56,068 bases of DNA from Rhodothermia bacterium. Lineage in GTDB: Bacteria; Bacteroidota; Rhodothermia; Rhodothermales; JAAAOL01. Of the stretch, positions 25,884-36,996 are shown piece by piece. Each line of letters opens with the position of its first letter. Position 1 is the stretch's first letter. A model generated the notes under the pieces. It saw only the letters and a program-made list of their open reading frames with translations, was not told where the DNA came from and did no database searches. The stretch spans positions 1-56,068 of the forward strand of contig JAUIDY010000027.1 in the NCBI GenBank assembly GCA_030428385.1, given 5' to 3'. A program made the translations under genes and the position numbers.

Positions 25884-26066
25884 GAATACGCGCAAACGGT
25901 TGGTGATTCGGAAGCCTGCAAGTTAATCAAAAGTCATCGCCGAACGGAGCACGGGCTTCGGAAAATGGACGAAGAATGGGTGATGGGGTATAGGGGTTTG
26001 GGAATAGACTGCCGCAACCACCGAACAAGTGCTTGTTCCTTTAGCAACCTTATGCTATTTTGATCT

Positions 26067-26130
26067 GCGTGATATACGGCACTCTGACAATTTTTGACAC
26101 GTCATATTGATAGATAATCATAGGTTAGGC
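26067..26130 (+). repeat. 64-bp cassette-border element, copy 1
   Basis: This stretch aligns without gaps to 32687-32750, with 52 of 64 bases the same, and both end in CATAGGTTAGGC. Each stands just upstream of an AT-rich accessory gene. GTTAGGC fits the GTTRRRY insertion core of integron sites. A TTGACA-like box inside (TTTTTGACAC at 26091-26100) may serve as promoter. The 280-bp gap from 25884 to this element holds nothing else recognised. Confidence 0.6.
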
Positions 26131-26174
26131 ACCAGTGCGTCTTAGATAACACCTCTTACAAATCCTTCTCGTAA

Positions 26175-27086
26175 ATGGCTACAGCAAAATACTATTTGGG
26201 CAGAGTATTGAAGCTTGGAAACCTAACGCATGAAGGTATGATCAAGGCAATTCAGGACCCTGCCACAATTCAAAGAGGAAATTACCTATTCACATTCACT
26301 GACATCAGCTATGTCAAAGGAGTTGCTGACTACGATTTCGTTTTTGCTAAGCTGGCGAAGTTTGCTCCTGAAGGAGAAATAGAAGTTGTCGAACCAGAAA
26401 AGCATGTAGCTACAGCAGTAGATGCTCCCAATCTCCTGTATGCATCAAGTCCCTTCGTTTATATCCCAGAGTATTCAGGGATAGCATACCAGCATATTTG
26501 GAATAAACTACCAAGTGAGCAATTCGAGAAAGCCTTTGCTGGTCTCATCGAAGAGAAATATGAAGGGTTCTTTGTCGAAGCCAAGGTAGAGCCTATTGCT
26601 GACCTTCAAACATTCATTCAACGTGTTTCCACGCTTGAAGTCGTCTACAAGATGGACGCTAGGGTACATCCTCCGAATCCACTTTTTGGTGCTGCTTGGA
26701 GATCACTGCGCAGCTACATACAACGGCGGAAACTTGGAGAGATACAAATGAAGGAAGAAGCAGAAACTGACGCAGGAATCGCTACAAACCTTCCTCGAAT
26801 TGCCGACTTGGTACTGAAGCAGCCTAAAGTTGATGAAAGTGAAATACAGCGCCTACTTGAACCTTTCGAGAGCGGAATCGGGGATGCAGCAGTATTAATG
26901 GCAGCTGACGGATATGGGCGAGCCAAAGTCGAAGGAAGGAGAAATGAACAACGTATCGTTGTGCGCACCAAAGAAAACCAAATCGCCTTTGATTTTGACA
27001 GGGATCCTGATCCTGTCGAACTCGCATCTGAGGCAATAAAAATTCTAAAACGCATCAACGACGACCGTTACCTGGATCATCCATGA
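26175..27086 (+). CDS. Unknown protein, first gene of an AT-rich two-gene unit
   Basis: 303 residues, not recognised with confidence. It has no membrane helix or signal peptide. The middle reads as an alpha/beta fold (VDAPNLLYASSPFVYIPEYSG, then FFVEAKVEPIADLQTFIQRV), followed by a region where two possible beta strands flank DGYGRAKVEGRRNEQRIVV. There is faint resemblance to DUF4747-type proteins of mobile elements, from memory only. Base composition is clearly lower in GC than the genes on either side, and its start is 44 bp after the GTTAGGC element, both signs of acquisition. The stop overlaps the start of the membrane-protein gene (ATGA at 27083), so the two are made together; a soluble sensor with a membrane effector is a common defence layout (inference). 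Confidence 0.8.
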   Translation: MATAKYYLGRVLKLGNLTHEGMIKAIQDPATIQRGNYLFTFTDISYVKGVADYDFVFAKLAKFAPEGEIEVVEPEKHVATAVDAPNLLYASSPFVYIPEYSGIAYQHIWNKLPSEQFEKAFAGLIEEKYEGFFVEAKVEPIADLQTFIQRVSTLEVVYKMDARVHPPNPLFGAAWRSLRSYIQRRKLGEIQMKEEAETDAGIATNLPRIADLVLKQPKVDESEIQRLLEPFESGIGDAAVLMAADGYGRAKVEGRRNEQRIVVRTKENQIAFDFDRDPDPVELASEAIKILKRINDDRYLDHP

Positions 27087-27547
27087 AGCGATTTGCTGAC
27101 TGGCTTAGAATCATTTTCTGGTCTCCAGAATTTGCCAGCATACTTATTGTTGCAGGTGTAACCTACAAATGGCCACAGCTATTGCATCGGATTGGGAAGT
27201 ATTTCATCGTTGACGAATTAGGCATAGAGACATCCATTTTGAGCTTACCAATAATCCTAACCGTGGCCACTTACAAAATGGGACGTGATTTACTCAACCC
27301 TGAAGATAAGCGAGAGATTCTGACTGAATGGCCAGAGTATTGGCTCTTGAAAAACCGAGTACGTGCTGCTCTCGCTTTCTCGGCAGGGTCATGTGTGGGT
27401 TTTATTGTGGGATGGTTTTTGATCCAAGAAGGCGAGGTGGAAATTGGAGCAGCCACCAGTATGGCCTCCATATTGGTGGGAGCGTTTTCTTTGGTTACAG
27501 TTGCTATGGCAAAAATTGATGGAAGAGATGTGCTTGACGGAATGTGA
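27083..27547 (+). CDS. Small polytopic membrane protein, second gene of the AT-rich unit
   Basis: 154 residues with about four hydrophobic segments: FASILIVAGVTYKW, ILSLPIILTVATY, ALAFSAGSCVGFIVGWFLI and AATSMASILVGAFSLVTVAMA, with a charged loop DLLNPEDKREILTEWPEYW between the second and third. No known family recognised. Translationally coupled to the upstream gene through an ATGA overlap and sharing its low GC. A membrane partner of this size next to a soluble protein could act as a pore-forming or depolarising effector, but there is no direct evidence. GCATAAC at 27555-27561, just after the stop, may be the decayed first box of the cassette's own recombination site. Confidence 0.75.
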   Translation: MKRFADWLRIIFWSPEFASILIVAGVTYKWPQLLHRIGKYFIVDELGIETSILSLPIILTVATYKMGRDLLNPEDKREILTEWPEYWLLKNRVRAALAFSAGSCVGFIVGWFLIQEGEVEIGAATSMASILVGAFSLVTVAMAKIDGRDVLDGM

Positions 27548-27633
27548 GGATGGTGCATAACAACCGGTCTCACACATCGATCAACCACACTTACCCCATC
27601 ACCCCCAATCTCAACCCCTCACACACCCAACTA

Positions 27634-27705
27634 CCCACTTTCAATCGCGGCTTCGTCCAGCACAAACCGGGGCGTGGCGTGCTTATGAGCGCGTAACTGC
27701 GCGAA
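27634..27705 (-). pseudogene. Remnant of a polysaccharide-deacetylase C-terminus
   Basis: Read on the minus strand this stretch encodes HATPRFVLDEAAIESG, nearly the same as the ATPRFVLDAAGIESE tail of the deacetylase at 28417-29373. The rest of that gene is missing here. It is a tail from a second copy or paralogue, left at the edge of the toxin-antitoxin insertion. Confidence 0.6.
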
Positions 27706-27799
27706 TGGCCAACACATGGGGCGCAATTCAATCGTAGGGCAGCGCAAGGCAAACCGCACCTCTCAAAGCCTCAGGAACCCTTGCGCAAAAACATCATTC

Positions 27800-27818
27800 T
27801 GTACAGCAACCCTGTACT
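27800..27818 (+). promoter_or_regulatory. Probable YefM operator
   Basis: TGTACA at 27800-27805 and TGTACT at 27813-27818 lie 13 bp apart, just upstream of the antitoxin start. YefM of E. coli is known to bind paired TGTACA hexamers at its own promoter, with about 12 bp between centres, so this fits autoregulation of the module. Confidence 0.5.
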
Positions 27819-27831
27819 ACACGGAATGAGC

Positions 27832-28116
27832 ATGGCAATCGACGTAACCTACACCCAAGCCCGCGCCAACCTCGCCAAACTTTGGGATGAGGCCCTCAGT
27901 AACCGCGAGCCGATCATTATTCACCGGCGCGGCAAAGAAGACATGGCGATGATTCCCGCCGATGAACTCGCAGGACTTATGGAGACAGCCCACCTGTTAC
28001 GCTCTCCCCGCAACGCCGAGCGCCTACTCGTGGCCCTTGCACGTTCCAGACAAGGAGAAGGCCAACCTCAAAGCCTCGATGACTTAAAAGAGAGCATAGG
28101 CTTTGGCGAAAAGTAA
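27832..28116 (+). CDS. yefM: YefM/Phd family antitoxin
   Basis: 94 residues from MAIDVTYTQARANLAKLWDE at 27832, which has a GGA box six bases upstream; ATG at 27826 is an alternative. The N-terminal dimerisation and DNA-binding domain is typical of the family (TYTQARANL, IIIHRRGKEDMAMIPADEL), and the C-terminal part (LLRSPRNAERLLVALARS) would wrap the toxin. It should neutralise the YoeB-like toxin encoded next and repress the pair through the TGTACA hexamers upstream. Overlaps the toxin gene by 14 bp. The module sits between accessory genes with a deacetylase-tail remnant on its upstream side. Confidence 0.92.
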   Translation: MAIDVTYTQARANLAKLWDEALSNREPIIIHRRGKEDMAMIPADELAGLMETAHLLRSPRNAERLLVALARSRQGEGQPQSLDDLKESIGFGEK

Positions 28117-28387
28117 AAAGTCAAAACCTGAATGGAAGGCCGTTTTTCAGCCGGAGTTCCGAGAGGACCTGCGCTATTGGGTCAAGGTAGACCGGAAGGT
28201 GGCTTTGCGCGCGTTCGACATAATAGAAGCAATCCTGCGAGACCCGTTCAAGGGCATCGGTAAACCAGAGCCTTTGAAATACCTTGGGGCAGGGGTGTGG
28301 TCACGAAGGCTGACACAAGAGCATCGGGTCGTGTATGTAGTCAAGCAAAGACGGATTGATTTTCTTCAGGCGCGATACCACTACTGA
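28103..28387 (+). CDS. yoeB: YoeB-like ribosome-dependent mRNA interferase toxin
   Basis: 94 residues from a TTG codon at 28103. Similarity to E. coli YoeB covers the whole length: GKPEPLKYLGAGVWSRRL followed by TQEHRVVYVV and the terminal RYHY, whose His and Tyr are catalytic in YoeB. The family cuts mRNA on the ribosome during starvation and is held inactive by YefM. An N-terminal lysine-rich extension of about 12 residues (AKSKKSKPEWK) precedes the usual start. Gene order antitoxin then toxin with a 14-bp overlap is standard. Toxin appears intact. Confidence 0.93.
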   Translation: MAKSKKSKPEWKAVFQPEFREDLRYWVKVDRKVALRAFDIIEAILRDPFKGIGKPEPLKYLGAGVWSRRLTQEHRVVYVVKQRRIDFLQARYHY

Positions 28388-28416
28388 GGCCAACGCTTCA
28401 CCTGTACTTCAACTCG

Positions 28417-29373
28417 TCACTCACTTTCAATCCCGGCGGCGTCCAGCACAAAGCGGGGCGTGGCGGGTTCGTCTGCGAAGAAGTCGCCGCGGCGTCCGGC
28501 AGTAAGCGCCCAGCGGTGGAGCCAGGAGATGCCAGCCGGTCCGGCATAGGTGTCCGGCATCGCATAGGCCGGATCGGTGAGGGCGTCTTCGAGGGTGATG
28601 AACCGGTAGCCTCGCTTGCGCATCATCGCCACGAGTGCATCGAAAGTATCGGCGTTGAGGCGGTTGGCGTGGAGAAGCAGCGTGTGTTTCATCGTGCGCC
28701 CCAGGAAGTCCTGCTCCTGCTGCTCAAAATAGGCGAATTTGGCGTCCATGTACGGAATGTATGCCTCGGCGATGCGCGCCATCTGGGCGGTGTCGCCGCG
28801 CTGGGCGGCGCGTTCGTAGGCGCTGGCAAAGATCCACTCGGAGTTGTCGATGGACACCGGCGCAACTTCGTAGCCATGCGCCCCGAGGAAGGCATGCAGG
28901 CTGTCGCGCTTGCCCAGCGTCTCGCCGGTGCGCAGGTACGGATGGCGGAAGTAGCGCACGGTCTGCCCAGCGTCTTCCATGAGTTGCCGCGTCACCTGTT
29001 CGCCGCGCAGGATGCCTTGCTGATACGTCGCGAGCGGCGTCCGGTGTAGGTTGGCGTGGGCATACTGGTGGTTGCCCAGTTCCAGCCCCGCGTCGATCCA
29101 CTGCTGCAACAGCGCCACGCGCTCCGGTACCAACTCGCCGTCGGCGTACAACTTGCCCTCGTTCACAAACCCGATGGCGGGCACCTCGTGGCGCACCACC
29201 GCCGCCACCAGCTTTTCCGTGATCCACCCGTGCGCCTCGGGTGCGCCGTTGACGGGCAAGTCGTCAATCGTAATCGCCACCTGCCGATCGATGGGCGTCG
29301 TGGTGGCGGTCTGTGCGTGTACGGTCGTCACCGCCACCAGGCAAGCAAACAGCAGGATACAAAGGTTGGTCAT
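28417..29373 (-). CDS. Exported polysaccharide deacetylase (NodB-like)
   Basis: 318 residues from MTNLCILLFACLVAV at 29373, with a signal peptide ending near VHAQT; a longer frame to 29496 has no export signal. NodB features: AITIDDLPVNG with the catalytic/metal Asp pair, GNHQYAHANLH with the metal-binding His pair, the YFRHPYLRTGET segment, and LLLHANRLNAD with the late His. The family removes acetyl groups from chitin, peptidoglycan or other N-acetylated glycans outside the cytoplasm. The upstream region carries a strong palindrome shared with the Xaa-Pro peptidase gene at 47835. Its last codons are duplicated at 27634-27705. Confidence 0.93.
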   Translation of the reverse strand: MTNLCILLFACLVAVTTVHAQTATTTPIDRQVAITIDDLPVNGAPEAHGWITEKLVAAVVRHEVPAIGFVNEGKLYADGELVPERVALLQQWIDAGLELGNHQYAHANLHRTPLATYQQGILRGEQVTRQLMEDAGQTVRYFRHPYLRTGETLGKRDSLHAFLGAHGYEVAPVSIDNSEWIFASAYERAAQRGDTAQMARIAEAYIPYMDAKFAYFEQQEQDFLGRTMKHTLLLHANRLNADTFDALVAMMRKRGYRFITLEDALTDPAYAMPDTYAGPAGISWLHRWALTAGRRGDFFADEPATPRFVLDAAGIESE

Positions 29374-29573: not shown

Positions 29574-31685
29574 TCAAAACCCCTGCTGGGCGGTAAGATA
29601 CGTATACCGCTCCTCCGAGCGCCCCGTTTTTATCCGCAGCGTCTCGTTGTTTTGCAGCGTGGGATCGCGCTTGGGTGGGTTTTCAGGGTCTTCGATGATC
29701 GGCAGGCCGCTAATGAACATGTCCTCGTTGAGTTCGCCAATGGGGAGTTTGACGAAGTAGCTTTTCGGCGCGGCGACGAAGCGCATGCCCTCCACGCGGC
29801 GGCTCTCGGGCAGGTACGGCACCAGCCAGCGGTTCGCCCACGCGGTGGGGAGCGGGTACCATGAGGGCTGGCGGCGCGTCACGCCGCTGCGCTGCACGCG
29901 CTGGTGGTTGATGCCACTGCCCGCAGCAAAACGCGGCTTGCGAATGATGCCAATGAGGTACCACAGCAGCACCAGCAACACCAACGCACATACCAAAAGC
30001 AGGCCCCACTTCGCCCAGAACCCGATGTCGTGGATGGTGAACGAGAGCGTCTGGCGGGCCGGTGTTTCGCGGGCATCTTTCGTGCGCGCTTCCACCGTTA
30101 CCTCGAAGGTGCCCGTCGGCGTGAGTTGCCACAGCGGGCGGCTCCGGCGGGGCTTGAGCGTCCAGCCGGTTGCATCGCGTTCCACGTTTAGGTTGAGGCC
30201 ATCGTCGTCCACCACGTCCAGCGACCACTGCTCAAAATCGTGCGGCATGACGGGTTGTCCATCGGCGGTGGGCGTAAGCGTGAGCGGAGCGGTATCAGGG
30301 ACCTTGTCGAGGTCGGCTTCCCACGACGGCGGGGTGCTCAGATCGAGCGCACGCGGCGGGGCGCAGAAGACGCCCCGCACGGTGTAGACGCTCGACAGGT
30401 AGTTGAAATAACCGGGATACACAGCAGACACCGACGCCGTCGTGGCGCTGTCGGGCACGGCGAGCAGCCGCTCGAAGCGCGTGCGCGAGGGATGCAGTGT
30501 CATCGCCTGCTCCTGGGCGCTGAGGCGCAGCCGCACGTCGAGGTCGTTGGGACGCTGGATCTGCTGCGTCAGCGTGTCGCCTTCGGGGCTGATCAGGGCG
30601 GCTTCGATGCGAAATGAACTGCCCCGGCACGGCTCCACCAACCCGCCCTGCACGGCAATCGGAATCCCTTCAGCATCCACAAAGCGCACGGCGAGGCGGG
30701 CGGCGACTTCGGGCAGCACGTCCAGTTCGTTCGTCGCGACGTTGCGGTCCAGCCGCACGTCGATGGTACCGGCGGGGATGGTGCGCCCTTCGGCGGTGCG
30801 CGACAGGTGGGTGAGGCGTCCGTACAGATCCAGAATGCTCGGCTCCGGGAAGGCGGCGTCCAGCACACTCGGCGCACGCAGCCCTTGTCCGTCTACCGAC
30901 GCCGACGTAAACCCGACCAGCGGCTCTGGCTGCGGGTCTTGCTGCAACAGCGTCAGCCGACGCAGCGGCAATTCGGTTTCCACCCGCACGCGGTCGCCCT
31001 GCACGACGATGCGCGGTCCCTGCCCAAACGTGCGCGCCGTGATGTCGGCGGCGATGCGCTGCATCTGGGCGATGATGTCTTGCGGCCCCAGGGCGCGGTA
31101 GATGCTGGCCTGCGCCTCCTCGCGCCACACCGCCACGGCAGGCTGATCGGCAAAGCCCTGCACCTCCGCGTCGTTCTCGCCGATGAGCAGGAACAGGACG
31201 CGCGCGCCCGTGCGCTCCATAAACGTCCGCACGCGGGGCTGGATAAAATCGACGGGCGGGGCGTCGTTGAACTCGCCGTCGGTGATGATGAGCATCCAGT
31301 TGTCGGTGCCCCCGCTGGCTTCCAGCGCCTGCATCGCCGTGGCGACGGAGCCGTACGGCGTCGGCGAGCCGTCGACGGGCATCGGAAGCTGCCGCATCGA
31401 GTCGATGGCGGCGGCCTGCTGCGCCAGCATCATCGCTTCCGCCTGCGCCGCCGTGCTCATCTGCACCACAAAAAGCTGGTCTTCTTCGGACAGCATCCCC
31501 GTGAGCATCTGGAGGGCATAGTTGGCATACACCCACCGCCGCCCGACGGCCTCGTTGCCACTCAGCATACTGCCCGAGTCGTCATACACCACCGCCACGG
31601 TCCGGTGCTGCGCCGATGCCGGGAGCGCGGCGTACAGCCCACCCAGGAGCAGCAGCCAGGCATAAAAAAACGAGCGGGGTGACAT
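29574..31685 (-). CDS. Exported von Willebrand factor A domain protein with one membrane anchor
   Basis: About 703 residues. ATG at 31685 (MSPRSFFYAWLLLLGG) is preferred because it lies exactly 12 bp after the duplicated leader element, as does the start of the neighbouring lipoprotein gene. A signal peptide is followed by a vWA domain at ~30-210 with the metal-ion site DDSGSM and a second Asp/Thr site near ITDGEFND. A long beta-rich region with probable Ig-like modules follows, then one membrane helix near residue 570 (WGLLLVCALVLLVLLWYLIG) and a ~110-residue tail. If the signal peptide is used, the vWA part faces the periplasm. vWA domains bind protein partners through the metal site; the partner is unknown. 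Confidence 0.85.
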   Translation of the reverse strand: MSPRSFFYAWLLLLGGLYAALPASAQHRTVAVVYDDSGSMLSGNEAVGRRWVYANYALQMLTGMLSEEDQLFVVQMSTAAQAEAMMLAQQAAAIDSMRQLPMPVDGSPTPYGSVATAMQALEASGGTDNWMLIITDGEFNDAPPVDFIQPRVRTFMERTGARVLFLLIGENDAEVQGFADQPAVAVWREEAQASIYRALGPQDIIAQMQRIAADITARTFGQGPRIVVQGDRVRVETELPLRRLTLLQQDPQPEPLVGFTSASVDGQGLRAPSVLDAAFPEPSILDLYGRLTHLSRTAEGRTIPAGTIDVRLDRNVATNELDVLPEVAARLAVRFVDAEGIPIAVQGGLVEPCRGSSFRIEAALISPEGDTLTQQIQRPNDLDVRLRLSAQEQAMTLHPSRTRFERLLAVPDSATTASVSAVYPGYFNYLSSVYTVRGVFCAPPRALDLSTPPSWEADLDKVPDTAPLTLTPTADGQPVMPHDFEQWSLDVVDDDGLNLNVERDATGWTLKPRRSRPLWQLTPTGTFEVTVEARTKDARETPARQTLSFTIHDIGFWAKWGLLLVCALVLLVLLWYLIGIIRKPRFAAGSGINHQRVQRSGVTRRQPSWYPLPTAWANRWLVPYLPESRRVEGMRFVAAPKSYFVKLPIGELNEDMFISGLPIIEDPENPPKRDPTLQNNETLRIKTGRSEERYTYLTAQQGF

Positions 31686-31697
31686 GGGCACAGGATC

Positions 31698-31747
31698 GGT
31701 TGCGGTTCGCCGTTGAATATCGGAGGCGCAACGGATTTTAGCGAATG
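31698..31747 (-). promoter_or_regulatory. 50-bp promoter/leader element, copy 1
   Basis: Matches 32403-32452 at 48 of 50 bases. On the minus strand it contains CCGTTG and CAACGG arms 13 bases apart and a CGCTAAAATCC box, and ends 12 bp before the ATG of the vWA gene. The identical spacing in both copies suggests a functional promoter and leader. Confidence 0.55.
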
Positions 31748-31826: not shown

Positions 31827-32390
31827 TTAATCCGCTAACCTCGCAAACTCATACACGAGGCCAGGGCCTCCGCCTCCTGCCCCAACGGGCATCACGATAA
31901 AAAACATCACGCCGGATGTAGAACGATACACACTCAGGTTGCCCTCCCCCGTCACTCCCACGGCAAACCCGTCTTTCACGAAGAACCAGAAAACAACGGA
32001 CTTCGTCGTGCTAAAGGCTGTTCGGGTTTTAAGTTCAAGTATGGTGTCGCGGTCTTGCACAGGATAGGAACGGGTATCAACAACCAGCCCATCCACTTCG
32101 CGCGCGAGGTGCAGCCGATCCTCGACCACGTTGAGCAAGATGACATCGTTGGAGCCTGAGTATTCCTTTGTCAAAAGCGTCCACAGCCATTCGGTGTCGG
32201 GCACCGACTCTTCATCGAGATAGCCCTCCGGAAGGGTATTGATGTTTTTGTACCGCCCCTCGACCAGCTTTACCGGATGTAGCGTGTCGCCCCATTGACG
32301 CAGGTACTTGGCATGGTGTGGTGAACACGCCGCGCACAGAAACAAGCTGGCAAGAATCAGCCATCGGGGGAACACCAAGCGTGTCGACAT
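31827..32390 (-). CDS. Putative lipoprotein of unknown function
   Basis: 187 residues from MSTRLVFPRWLILASLFLCAAC at 32390. The signal peptide ends in a lipobox (LCAAC), so the mature protein is probably lipid-anchored. The remaining ~165 residues are predicted mixed alpha/beta with a glycine-rich patch near the C-terminus (PVGAGGGGPG); no family recognised. It shares a near-identical 50-bp leader with the vWA gene downstream on the same strand, so the two are likely co-regulated. Confidence 0.75.
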   Translation of the reverse strand: MSTRLVFPRWLILASLFLCAACSPHHAKYLRQWGDTLHPVKLVEGRYKNINTLPEGYLDEESVPDTEWLWTLLTKEYSGSNDVILLNVVEDRLHLAREVDGLVVDTRSYPVQDRDTILELKTRTAFSTTKSVVFWFFVKDGFAVGVTGEGNLSVYRSTSGVMFFIVMPVGAGGGGPGLVYEFARLAD

Positions 32391-32402
32391 GAGCAAGAAA
32401 TA

Positions 32403-32452
32403 GGTTGTGGTTCGCCGTTGAATATCGGAGGCACAACGGATTTTAGCGAATG
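32403..32452 (-). promoter_or_regulatory. 50-bp promoter/leader element, copy 2
   Basis: Second copy of the element at 31698-31747, 12 bp before the lipoprotein start. The CCGTTG/CAACGG arms are conserved between the copies, which favours a protein-binding site or leader hairpin over chance. Confidence 0.55.
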
Positions 32453-32502: not shown

Positions 32503-32532
32503 TTGACTTACGTTTGGTCGGTGCGTATGCTG
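32503..32532 (+). repeat. 30-bp direct repeat, copy 1
   Basis: Identical over all 30 bases to 36889-36918, same orientation. It can be read as a sigma-70-like promoter: TTGACT, a 17-base spacer, TATGCT. The two copies bracket the second cassette and the GH9 gene. Confidence 0.6.
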
Positions 32533-32686
32533 CAGTGTCGCATGCCGTGTGAACCTGTTTGAGCAGTTTGGGGACCTGAGATACGGAAGGCAAAACTTGT
32601 GGGACTTAGTCGTCACAATGACGTGTTTTCGCGACCCATTTTTTGCTTAACCTGATTAAAGAAACCACTTACACGATGTCGGCACC

Positions 32687-32750
32687 GCGTGTTATGCGTC
32701 ACCCTGACGGTTTTTAACACATCAGGTTGCTAGATAAGCATAGGTTAGGC
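32687..32750 (+). repeat. 64-bp cassette-border element, copy 2
   Basis: Gap-free 52/64 match to 26067-26130, ending in the GTTAGGC core at 32744-32750. It is 20 bp upstream of the cassette gene. Short complementary arms (CCTGA / TCAGG at 32703-32725) are replaced by different pairing bases (TGAC / GTCA) in copy 1. The rest of the 380-bp gap from 32391 holds the two repeat elements listed separately. Confidence 0.6.
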
Positions 32751-32770
32751 GTACAAATTGGACTTGGAAG

Positions 32771-33832
32771 ATGTCAAAACCGAGAGCTTTTGTTCTTATG
32801 CCATTTGATGCCAGTTTCGATGAGATCTACAATCTCTTCATTGCAGATGCACTTGTCGAAGCTGGATATGAAGTATTCCGAGCAGACGATATTCAGAACC
32901 AGAGAAGCATCTTAAAAGATATAATAGAACCAATTTTCACTTTTGATCTAGTAGTTGCTGATCTGACTACCAATAACCCAAATGTCTTTTATGAGCTCGG
33001 GATTGCCCATGCACTCGGAAAGAAAGTGGTCCTTCTGACTCAAGACGTAAATGATCTCCCCTTCGATCTACGTTCATATAGAGTGGTAGCCTATAGTACA
33101 CATTTTGCGCTGATGAGGCAGGCTAAGGATGAGTTGACACAATTAGCAATTGGTGCAAAAGACAACTCTATTCTTTTTGGAAGTCCCGTATCCGATTATC
33201 TGAGCTTATCTGGGAAGACACCTCTTTTTCCCACGAGAATACACGAAGTATCTTTGTCAGATTCTGAGGAAAAAGGTTTTCTTGATTACTTGGCAGACTT
33301 TGAGGAAGCAACAGCAGAGATGACAGAAATCGTTGCAGGAATCGCGACTAATCTCAGTGATATCAATAAGAAGACTCGTAAAACATCTTCAGATATCGAA
33401 AGTGCCAAGGCTAATCCTTCGTCAGGGACATTGACTCATATTCGTCGACTTGCTCGTAAACTTGCCAAAGATTTAGATGTCTTCAACATCAAGCTCAACA
33501 AAGCAAATATCAGTTATCAGGGCACTCTCTCAAGAATCGAAGATGGTCTTGAGTTTATGATAACCCATCATGAATCTGTGACTGATAAGGATCAAGATGA
33601 TCTGCGGGCTTTCTTGAATACTCTATCCAATGCTGAGATTACTATGCAAGAAGCAAGAGATACCTTTTCAGACCTAGGTGGAACAATTGTTGGTATTGAA
33701 GGAACCGAAAGATTCTTGACACGCTCTGCACGTGAAGGTCGAGATCAAATTAGACAGCTCGTAGATAACATTGATCAAACTCTGGCAATATTCGAGCGCG
33801 CTAGACTGATGGGAAGAGGTAAAATTGAATAG
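32771..33832 (+). CDS. TIR/nucleoside-deoxyribosyltransferase-like protein with C-terminal helical region, cassette gene
   Basis: 353 residues, clearly lower GC than flanking genes. Residues ~1-125 form a Rossmann-like domain: RAFVLMPFDASFDEIYN, then FRADDIQ, VVADLTTNNPNVFYELGIAH and KKVVLLTQDVNDLPFDLR. This pattern, with Glu in FYELG, is shared by the TIR and nucleoside 2-deoxyribosyltransferase-like fold seen in many bacterial defence proteins that split NAD or nucleosides. Residues ~165-350 are mainly helical and heptad-like, probably a coiled coil for oligomerisation or sensing. The gene lies between a GTTAGGC core and an attC-like site, as expected for an integron cassette. A role in phage defence is inference; catalytic activity cannot be proved from the sequence. 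Confidence 0.8.
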   Translation: MSKPRAFVLMPFDASFDEIYNLFIADALVEAGYEVFRADDIQNQRSILKDIIEPIFTFDLVVADLTTNNPNVFYELGIAHALGKKVVLLTQDVNDLPFDLRSYRVVAYSTHFALMRQAKDELTQLAIGAKDNSILFGSPVSDYLSLSGKTPLFPTRIHEVSLSDSEEKGFLDYLADFEEATAEMTEIVAGIATNLSDINKKTRKTSSDIESAKANPSSGTLTHIRRLARKLAKDLDVFNIKLNKANISYQGTLSRIEDGLEFMITHHESVTDKDQDDLRAFLNTLSNAEITMQEARDTFSDLGGTIVGIEGTERFLTRSAREGRDQIRQLVDNIDQTLAIFERARLMGRGKIE

Positions 33833-33841
33833 AGTGGGTAC

Positions 33842-33964
33842 GCCTAACCACCGCTTCAGCCGACAATGGGCGTGTCGGTCTTGCCTGATACATCCATTGC
33901 GTCCACATTACTTCGAGTAATTGCTTTGCCGTTTGCCCATTGCGGCTGATCGCTACCGTTGTGC
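33842..33964 (+). other. Integron attC-like recombination site
   Basis: First box GCCTAAC (33842-33848) is the exact complement of GTTAGGC at 32744-32750, the 5' border of the same cassette. Inner arms CAGCCGACAATGGGC and GCCCATTGCGGCTG pair fully except one bulged base, with unpaired spacers outside them and a long variable loop that includes ATTACT-TCG-AGTAAT. The insertion core at the end is GTTGTGC (33958-33964), one base off the GTTRRRY consensus. Size of about 120 bp and bulge are typical of attC sites. Confidence 0.7.
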
Positions 33965-36552: not shown

Positions 36553-36996
36553 ACGGATTTCCTTTTTTTCGGGTGGCCCGTGTTCAAGGTAATTCATCGG
36601 CATGGCACTCGCGCGGCTGTGATGTCGACAAATATTGAAGATGGATCAAATAGTGCGGAAGAGATCCACACAATACTTGATAGTTTTGTACAGGCGTAAA
36701 TGAGAAAGGAGTGAGGTGCAGCAATGCTGCATCGGGATTAGATGGGACCGCAGTACTCGAGCACGACGGATGTGAAGCCTATGTTCGAGCTGCAGAAGGC
36801 TGTTAGTTCAAGGCGCAAAGTCTCGGAAACTGTCTGGTATGTCGATTTGGGGCTGCGCCGGTCGCTTTTCCGCCCATCGCCCCTATCATTGACTTACGTT
36901 TGGTCGGTGCGTATGCTGTAGGATTGTCTTGTATCCATGTATCTATAGCCGTTATGTGGTGGACGAATGATGATCAGCAAACTACGGAGAAGCAGC
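36553..36996. other. Divergent intergenic region between GH9 and the alpha/beta hydrolase
   Basis: 444 bp with no gene seen. It contains the second copy of the 30-bp repeat (36889-36918) and, before the hydrolase start, a GGAGAAGC ribosome-binding-like site. Both flanking promoters should lie here. Confidence 0.5.
36889..36918 (+). repeat. 30-bp direct repeat, copy 2
   Basis: Identical to 32503-32532. Here its promoter-like boxes (TTGACT, 17-base spacer, TATGCT) face the alpha/beta hydrolase gene and end about 80 bp before its start. Confidence 0.6.

Follow-up and report, generated by a model that had tools for sequence, protein, structure and literature searches.

A probable orphan integron platform with a single attC-closed cassette in a genome of the Rhodothermia

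Positions 32642-33964 of the window (the whole stretch of 56,068 nucleotides analyzed here, from a Rhodothermia bacterium) are best explained as an orphan integron platform, that is, an attI site with one cassette closed by an attC site, which would have arisen when an intI-attI region was copied or re-acquired and intI was then lost. We put the probability of this reading at roughly 0.7. An attI site is usually regarded as one site beside one intI. The first-pass annotation of this DNA had recognized the attC site and the cassette, and both of these stand; it overlooked the attI upstream, a second unit of attI and cassette in the same window, the missing intI and the family of orphan sites elsewhere. 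The locus is called unit B here, and the second unit, which spans 26021-27561, is called unit A. The coordinates of the features are given in Table 1.

Table 1. Integron-related features of the window.
Feature	Coordinates	Strand	Details
attI copy A, without intI	26021..26130	+	palindrome GAACAAGTGCTTGTTC at 26023-26038; crossover between G26124 and T26125
Cassette A	26125..27561	+	truncated attC, reduced to R'' GCATAAC (27555-27561) and a few bases after it
Cassette A ORF 1, 303 aa	26175..27086	+	no Pfam, PADLOC or NCBIfam match
Cassette A ORF 2, 154 aa	27083..27547	+	no significant family match
Probable remnant of the first intI codons	32530..32590	-	PKLLKQVHTACDTA...; left boundary at a 30-nt repeat; DNA similarity to C75 17040-17085
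attI copy B, without intact intI	32642..32750	+	conserved core 32687-32750; crossover between G32744 and T32745; ends in GTTAGGC
Gene cassette B	32745..33958	+	insert between G32744 and T33959; GTTAGGC / GCCTAAC complementarity; attC at 3' end
Cassette B ORF, 353 aa	32771..33832	+	N-terminal TIR / nucleoside 2-deoxyribosyltransferase-like Rossmann domain (1-130); C-terminal long helices
attC	33842..33964	+	R'' 33842-33848; L'' 33857-33871 with bulged A33863; L' 33935-33948; R' 33958-33964

The attC Site and Cassette B

The first-pass annotation had described a near-textbook attC site closing a single-gene cassette, with GTTAGGC and GCCTAAC as exact complements and inner arms of 14 bp interrupted by one bulged base, spacers and a long loop. 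Sequence, fold and covariance bear this out. The 5' border GTTAGGC (32744-32750) is the exact reverse complement of the GCCTAAC of R'', and the inner arms CAGCCG-A-CAATGGGC and GCCCATTG-CGGCTG form 14 bp with A33863 bulged, together with unpaired spacers and a 63-nt loop. The R'' and R' boxes follow the RYYYAAC and GTTRRRY patterns around a G^TT crossover. The R' box in place at the 3' side, which was absent from the earlier description, is GTTGTGC, one base off GTTRRRY; GCCTAAC pairs perfectly with the 5' border rather than with this box, as is to be expected of an inserted cassette, in which the R' half is that of the target. A scan of both strands of the 56-kb window for R boxes with pairing arms found exactly one site, the attC.

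The covariance search that had been proposed as a check on the site gave high scores and no refutation. A model made from the window attC, two sites on contig C75 of the same genome and two from other genomes of the order (R1) scored the site at 57.7 bits, with the window attC included in the training set. A model made from 18 other sites of the genome, gathered with R1 and with the window attC left out (R3), scored it at 65.7 bits (E 1.1e-17), which on this own-genome model is comparable with other attC sites; the next-best place in the window reached 10.0 bits. Thirteen of the 19 pairs were altered on both sides and 91% of cells were paired, against at most 38% in slid versions, in an alignment that was fitted to the structure; a smaller MAFFT alignment agrees. 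When R' of the circular form was rebuilt from the 5' border, the bottom strand of the site had a folding energy of -27.0 kcal/mol (z = -3.8), which none of 200 shuffles equalled; the strand in place with its flanks folds more weakly (z = -1.3). The bottom-strand hairpin, also proposed as a check, has the extrahelical bases, spacers and variable terminal loop of attC sites, and its bulge/spacer pattern and bulge position are common to other attC sites of the genome, including those beside its intI. An Rfam scan of the window gave no match. By these features 33842-33964 is a true attC site, at which recombination is predicted.

Cassette B has a GC content of ~41% (58.6% for the window) and is the lowest 1-kb interval of the stretch. 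It resembles the gene cassettes of chromosomal integrons in its G^TT borders, R''/R' boxes, L arms with a conserved bulge, single ORF and GC content lower than that of its surroundings. Nothing in the cassette itself sets it apart from them; it differs in standing alone, outside a complete integron. Cassette B itself is a new member of an already known class, the integron gene cassettes.

The suggestion that the cargo resembles a TIR or deoxyribosyltransferase protein fits the matches of the 353-aa product. These include the PADLOC TIR effector at E 2e-9 and Pfam Nuc_deoxyrib_tr at 25.1 bits, below the cut-off of 28.8. In the AlphaFold model (mean pLDDT 83.9), long helices lie behind the N-terminal domain, which Foldseek placed between DNPH1 and TIR domains (SPARTA, SARM1) at E ~4e-3, with none below 1e-3. 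These fold matches and the NPNVFYELG motif, in which NPNV, Y and E are invariant, point to a TIR/NDT-like fold with a catalytic Glu. The protein shares the Rossmann-like N-terminal domain and the motif with its conserved Glu with the TIR / DNPH1-type N-glycosidase superfamily, but its helical C-terminal half belongs to no assigned family. We regard the cargo as a probable effector of the TIR/DNPH1 superfamily that consumes nucleotides or NAD, and infer a role for it in defence. At L095:3001-3510, in Pseudacidovorax intermedius, an attC site (35.4 bits) directly follows a 122-aa relative of the TIR-like domain, and the domain therefore travels in cassettes elsewhere too.

attI Copies and the Missing intI in the Window

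The 64 nt that end in GTTAGGC before cassette B recur 6.6 kb upstream, at 26067-26130, with 81% identity, and in both places GTTAGGC, a core of the GTTRRRY type, stands directly before a cassette (32744-32750 and 26124-26130). Copies A and B aligned with a score of 81 (shuffle maximum 34), and the window copies are homologous to the attI that lies beside intI in the same genome, on contig C75. Against this C75 attI, copy A with its palindrome GAACAAGTGCTTGTT included scored 54 (maximum of 41 in 1000 shuffles); copy B alone scored 38, which was reached by 1 of 1000 shuffles and is only marginally above them. Copy A reached 86.9 bits with a model that includes copy A (R2), and copy B 74.5 bits with a five-copy model that includes copy B. 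The truncated attC of cassette A gave no match with the R1 or R3 covariance models. Cassette A is the second-lowest GC stretch of the window, the two cassettes being the two lowest.

No full intI was found in the 56-kb window, and the units lack the functional intI in cis of a complete integron. Taken at face value, the matches of a tblastn search of the window with IntI were all noise; a family profile later singled out one spot. With this profile, made from the IntI N-termini of this genome and of 29 loci of the order, the best of 2092 six-frame pieces of the window was 32507-32572 on the minus strand, exactly where the start of intI is expected beside attI copy B; with a whole-window E of 0.5, it is this place and strand that support the remnant. 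Unit B perhaps keeps about 14-22 codons of the start of intI, and no intI remnant was seen at unit A.

attI Copies Elsewhere in the Genome

The genome (6.19 Mb in 245 contigs) has only one full intI, at C75:16115-17053, which scored 462.9 bits with TIGR02249 (cut-off 265). It is followed by attI and by attC sites with the same CCGAC..GCGG arms and bulge as the window type. Further attC sites were found on contigs C120, C136, C172, C117 and C141, and CALIN-like clusters (clusters of attC sites lacking an integron integrase) occur elsewhere in the genome. At C75:9311-9424 (L014), 7 kb away from the intact intI, the 3' part of a second intI remains; it contains a stop codon and matches the intact gene at 89% identity.

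A profile trained on the C75 attI and the two window copies independently found a copy on C136 (77 bits, E 1e-22). Over 165 bp this copy shares 90% identity with the intI-attI region of C75; it lacks intI, yet a long attC array is present. The homology begins at G^TTTAAAACA, at the intI start codon. The 64 nt beside the crossover are identical in the two, and the 16 differences are confined to the remaining 101 nt (p ~2e-4 if they were placed at random), which suggests constraint or conversion of the recombination core. A fifth copy, on C141, lies without intI before a DUF1780 gene and has a decayed crossover site, and a sixth, weaker candidate was found on C95 before a HAD phosphatase gene. 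The strong copies scored 74-101 bits with the attI profile. Matches of 16-22 bits on C7, C14 and C46 sit before ordinary genes and are likely to reflect promoter resemblance; part of the attI region may resemble native promoters.

The attI palindrome (RAACAAGNNCTTGTTY) occurs five times in 6.19 Mb, four of these within attI copies, and with this distribution its interpretation as a general SOS (LexA) box is unsupported. At C14:35699-35714 (L083/L086) it lies before a secreted esterase-like gene without cassette features.

Orphan attI Sites in a Relative

A DNA search of attI across the order found copies only in its own genome, and queries made per genome were therefore used. A closed genome in one contig, from another family of the same order (G020), has one intI match at the same threshold and seven copies of a 196-bp intI-attI region, six of which are orphans, mostly before one cassette. 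attC sites follow the attI copies in L140, L141, L142 (two) and L144; in the cassettes that were read, the start coincides with the expected GTTA or lies close to it. At least two orphans, in L141 and L142, still have a truncated 5' end of intI, and the two L142 copies have a common left boundary and different cassettes. The multiple copies in this one-contig genome argue that orphan copies are not an assembly artefact. No orphan copy was found in the intI-bearing genomes G065 and G033. One orphan attI cassette of G020 has its attC interrupted by an insertion sequence (L144:6448-7900).

Origin of the Orphan Units

On the sequence evidence, the best reading of the orphan units is that they are duplicated platforms without intI, which may now be frozen or may still be acted on in trans by the IntI that is left. 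The intI-attI platform would have been copied or re-acquired, giving several copies in the genome, and intI would then have been lost from the copies, with its first codons perhaps kept at unit B. The first cassette would have been retained and read from a promoter region carried in attI, and the intact C75 IntI may, judging by conservation, still recognize the orphan attI and attC in trans. The intI remnant at unit B, the 3' fragment of intI on C75 and the intI stubs of the G020 copies together favour copied platforms that lost intI. A tentative extension is a distributed integron, in which one integrase would serve many orphan attI docks in trans, each bearing a promoter and one cassette, and the units of attI and cassette would multiply.

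The main rival, which we regard as rather unlikely, is that a block composed of an intI 5' stub, attI, the first cassette and attC was moved by IntI in trans. A cryptic G^TT within or close to the start of intI would recombine with attC, and the resulting circle would enter genomic sites, in effect as a cassette carrying its own attI. Most orphan units do hold one cassette, the paired copies of G020 share a left boundary before different cassettes, the stretch that C136 shares with C75 begins at the start codon of intI, and IntI is known to act at secondary GTT sites (PMC10127599). However, a clear G^TT is lacking at the left ends of the G020 copies, the window units are too decayed for a left boundary to be defined, C136 carries a long array, and local duplication also accounts for the common boundaries. 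Off-target action of IntI, inserting a single cassette into an ordinary genomic site of the attG type, would agree with one cassette without intI in cis, and such insertions have been reported (PMC10127599, PMC2426708), but it is very improbable here because the 5' flank is an attI homologue over ~64-110 nt, twice in the window, and not an arbitrary GTT. Least probable of all is that the upstream repeat is a mere shared promoter module and GTTAGGC a coincidence. The weak profile matches before ordinary genes would agree with such a module, but they score far below the strong copies, and GTTRKRY is found at a matching position, followed by cassettes or attC sites, in C75, the two window copies, C95 and several G020 copies.

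Comparison with Known Systems

In having an attC without a neighbouring intI, the window locus resembles a CALIN as defined in IntegronFinder. It has, however, one attC instead of a cluster of two or more, and this is preceded by a recognizable attI, which is absent from the CALIN definition. Many intI pseudogenes have been reported, some of them produced by intragenomic duplication (PMC2426708). The orphan units are like these pseudo-integrons in their decayed integrase and in their probable origin by duplication; a broken intI is the marker of the pseudo-integrons, whereas here intI is nearly gone and attI with one cassette is found at several dispersed loci. In the DeltaattI-type cassettes of mobile integrons (PMC12901181), attI is likewise duplicated away from its usual place and used there by IntI, but in those cassettes, which lie inside an array, the 3' end has a partial attI in place of attC. 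The orphan units, unlike these, have a long attI 5' of a cassette with a normal attC and lie at separate chromosomal loci. No description of dispersed attI sites without intI was found in the literature, among open-licence papers. Dispersed orphan attI units, mostly with one cassette each, thus differ from CALINs, pseudo-integrons and DeltaattI-type cassettes and look like a new form of a known kind of locus.

The orphan sites would show either how captured genes come to be fixed in the chromosome under a promoter derived from attI, or that several docks can be served by a single integrase. Since the attI core is identical in one copy with intI and one without, the question of action in trans is directly testable. 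Annotation tools that seek intI or clusters of attC sites would miss or misname such loci.

Repeats Beside the Units

Several other repeats lie near the two units. An identical 30-nt sequence, promoter-like (TTGACT-17-TATGCT), occurs at 32503-32532 and 36889-36918, and its first copy abuts the intI remnant of unit B. A repeat of ~67 bp (31681-31747 and 32386-32452, 90%) flanks a small minus-strand ORF. Downstream of unit A, at 27633-28465, a YefM/YoeB toxin-antitoxin pair (27781-28387) lies between 47-bp direct repeats (27633-27679 and 28419-28465, 89%), which are the 3' end of a polysaccharide deacetylase gene, as if the pair had been inserted with a duplicated gene end. A 56-bp repeat is shared by the window (36826-36881) and contig C75 (L015:2180-2235) with 91% identity; on C75 it flanks cassette-like genes and has inverted ends, and it is perhaps a small non-autonomous element.
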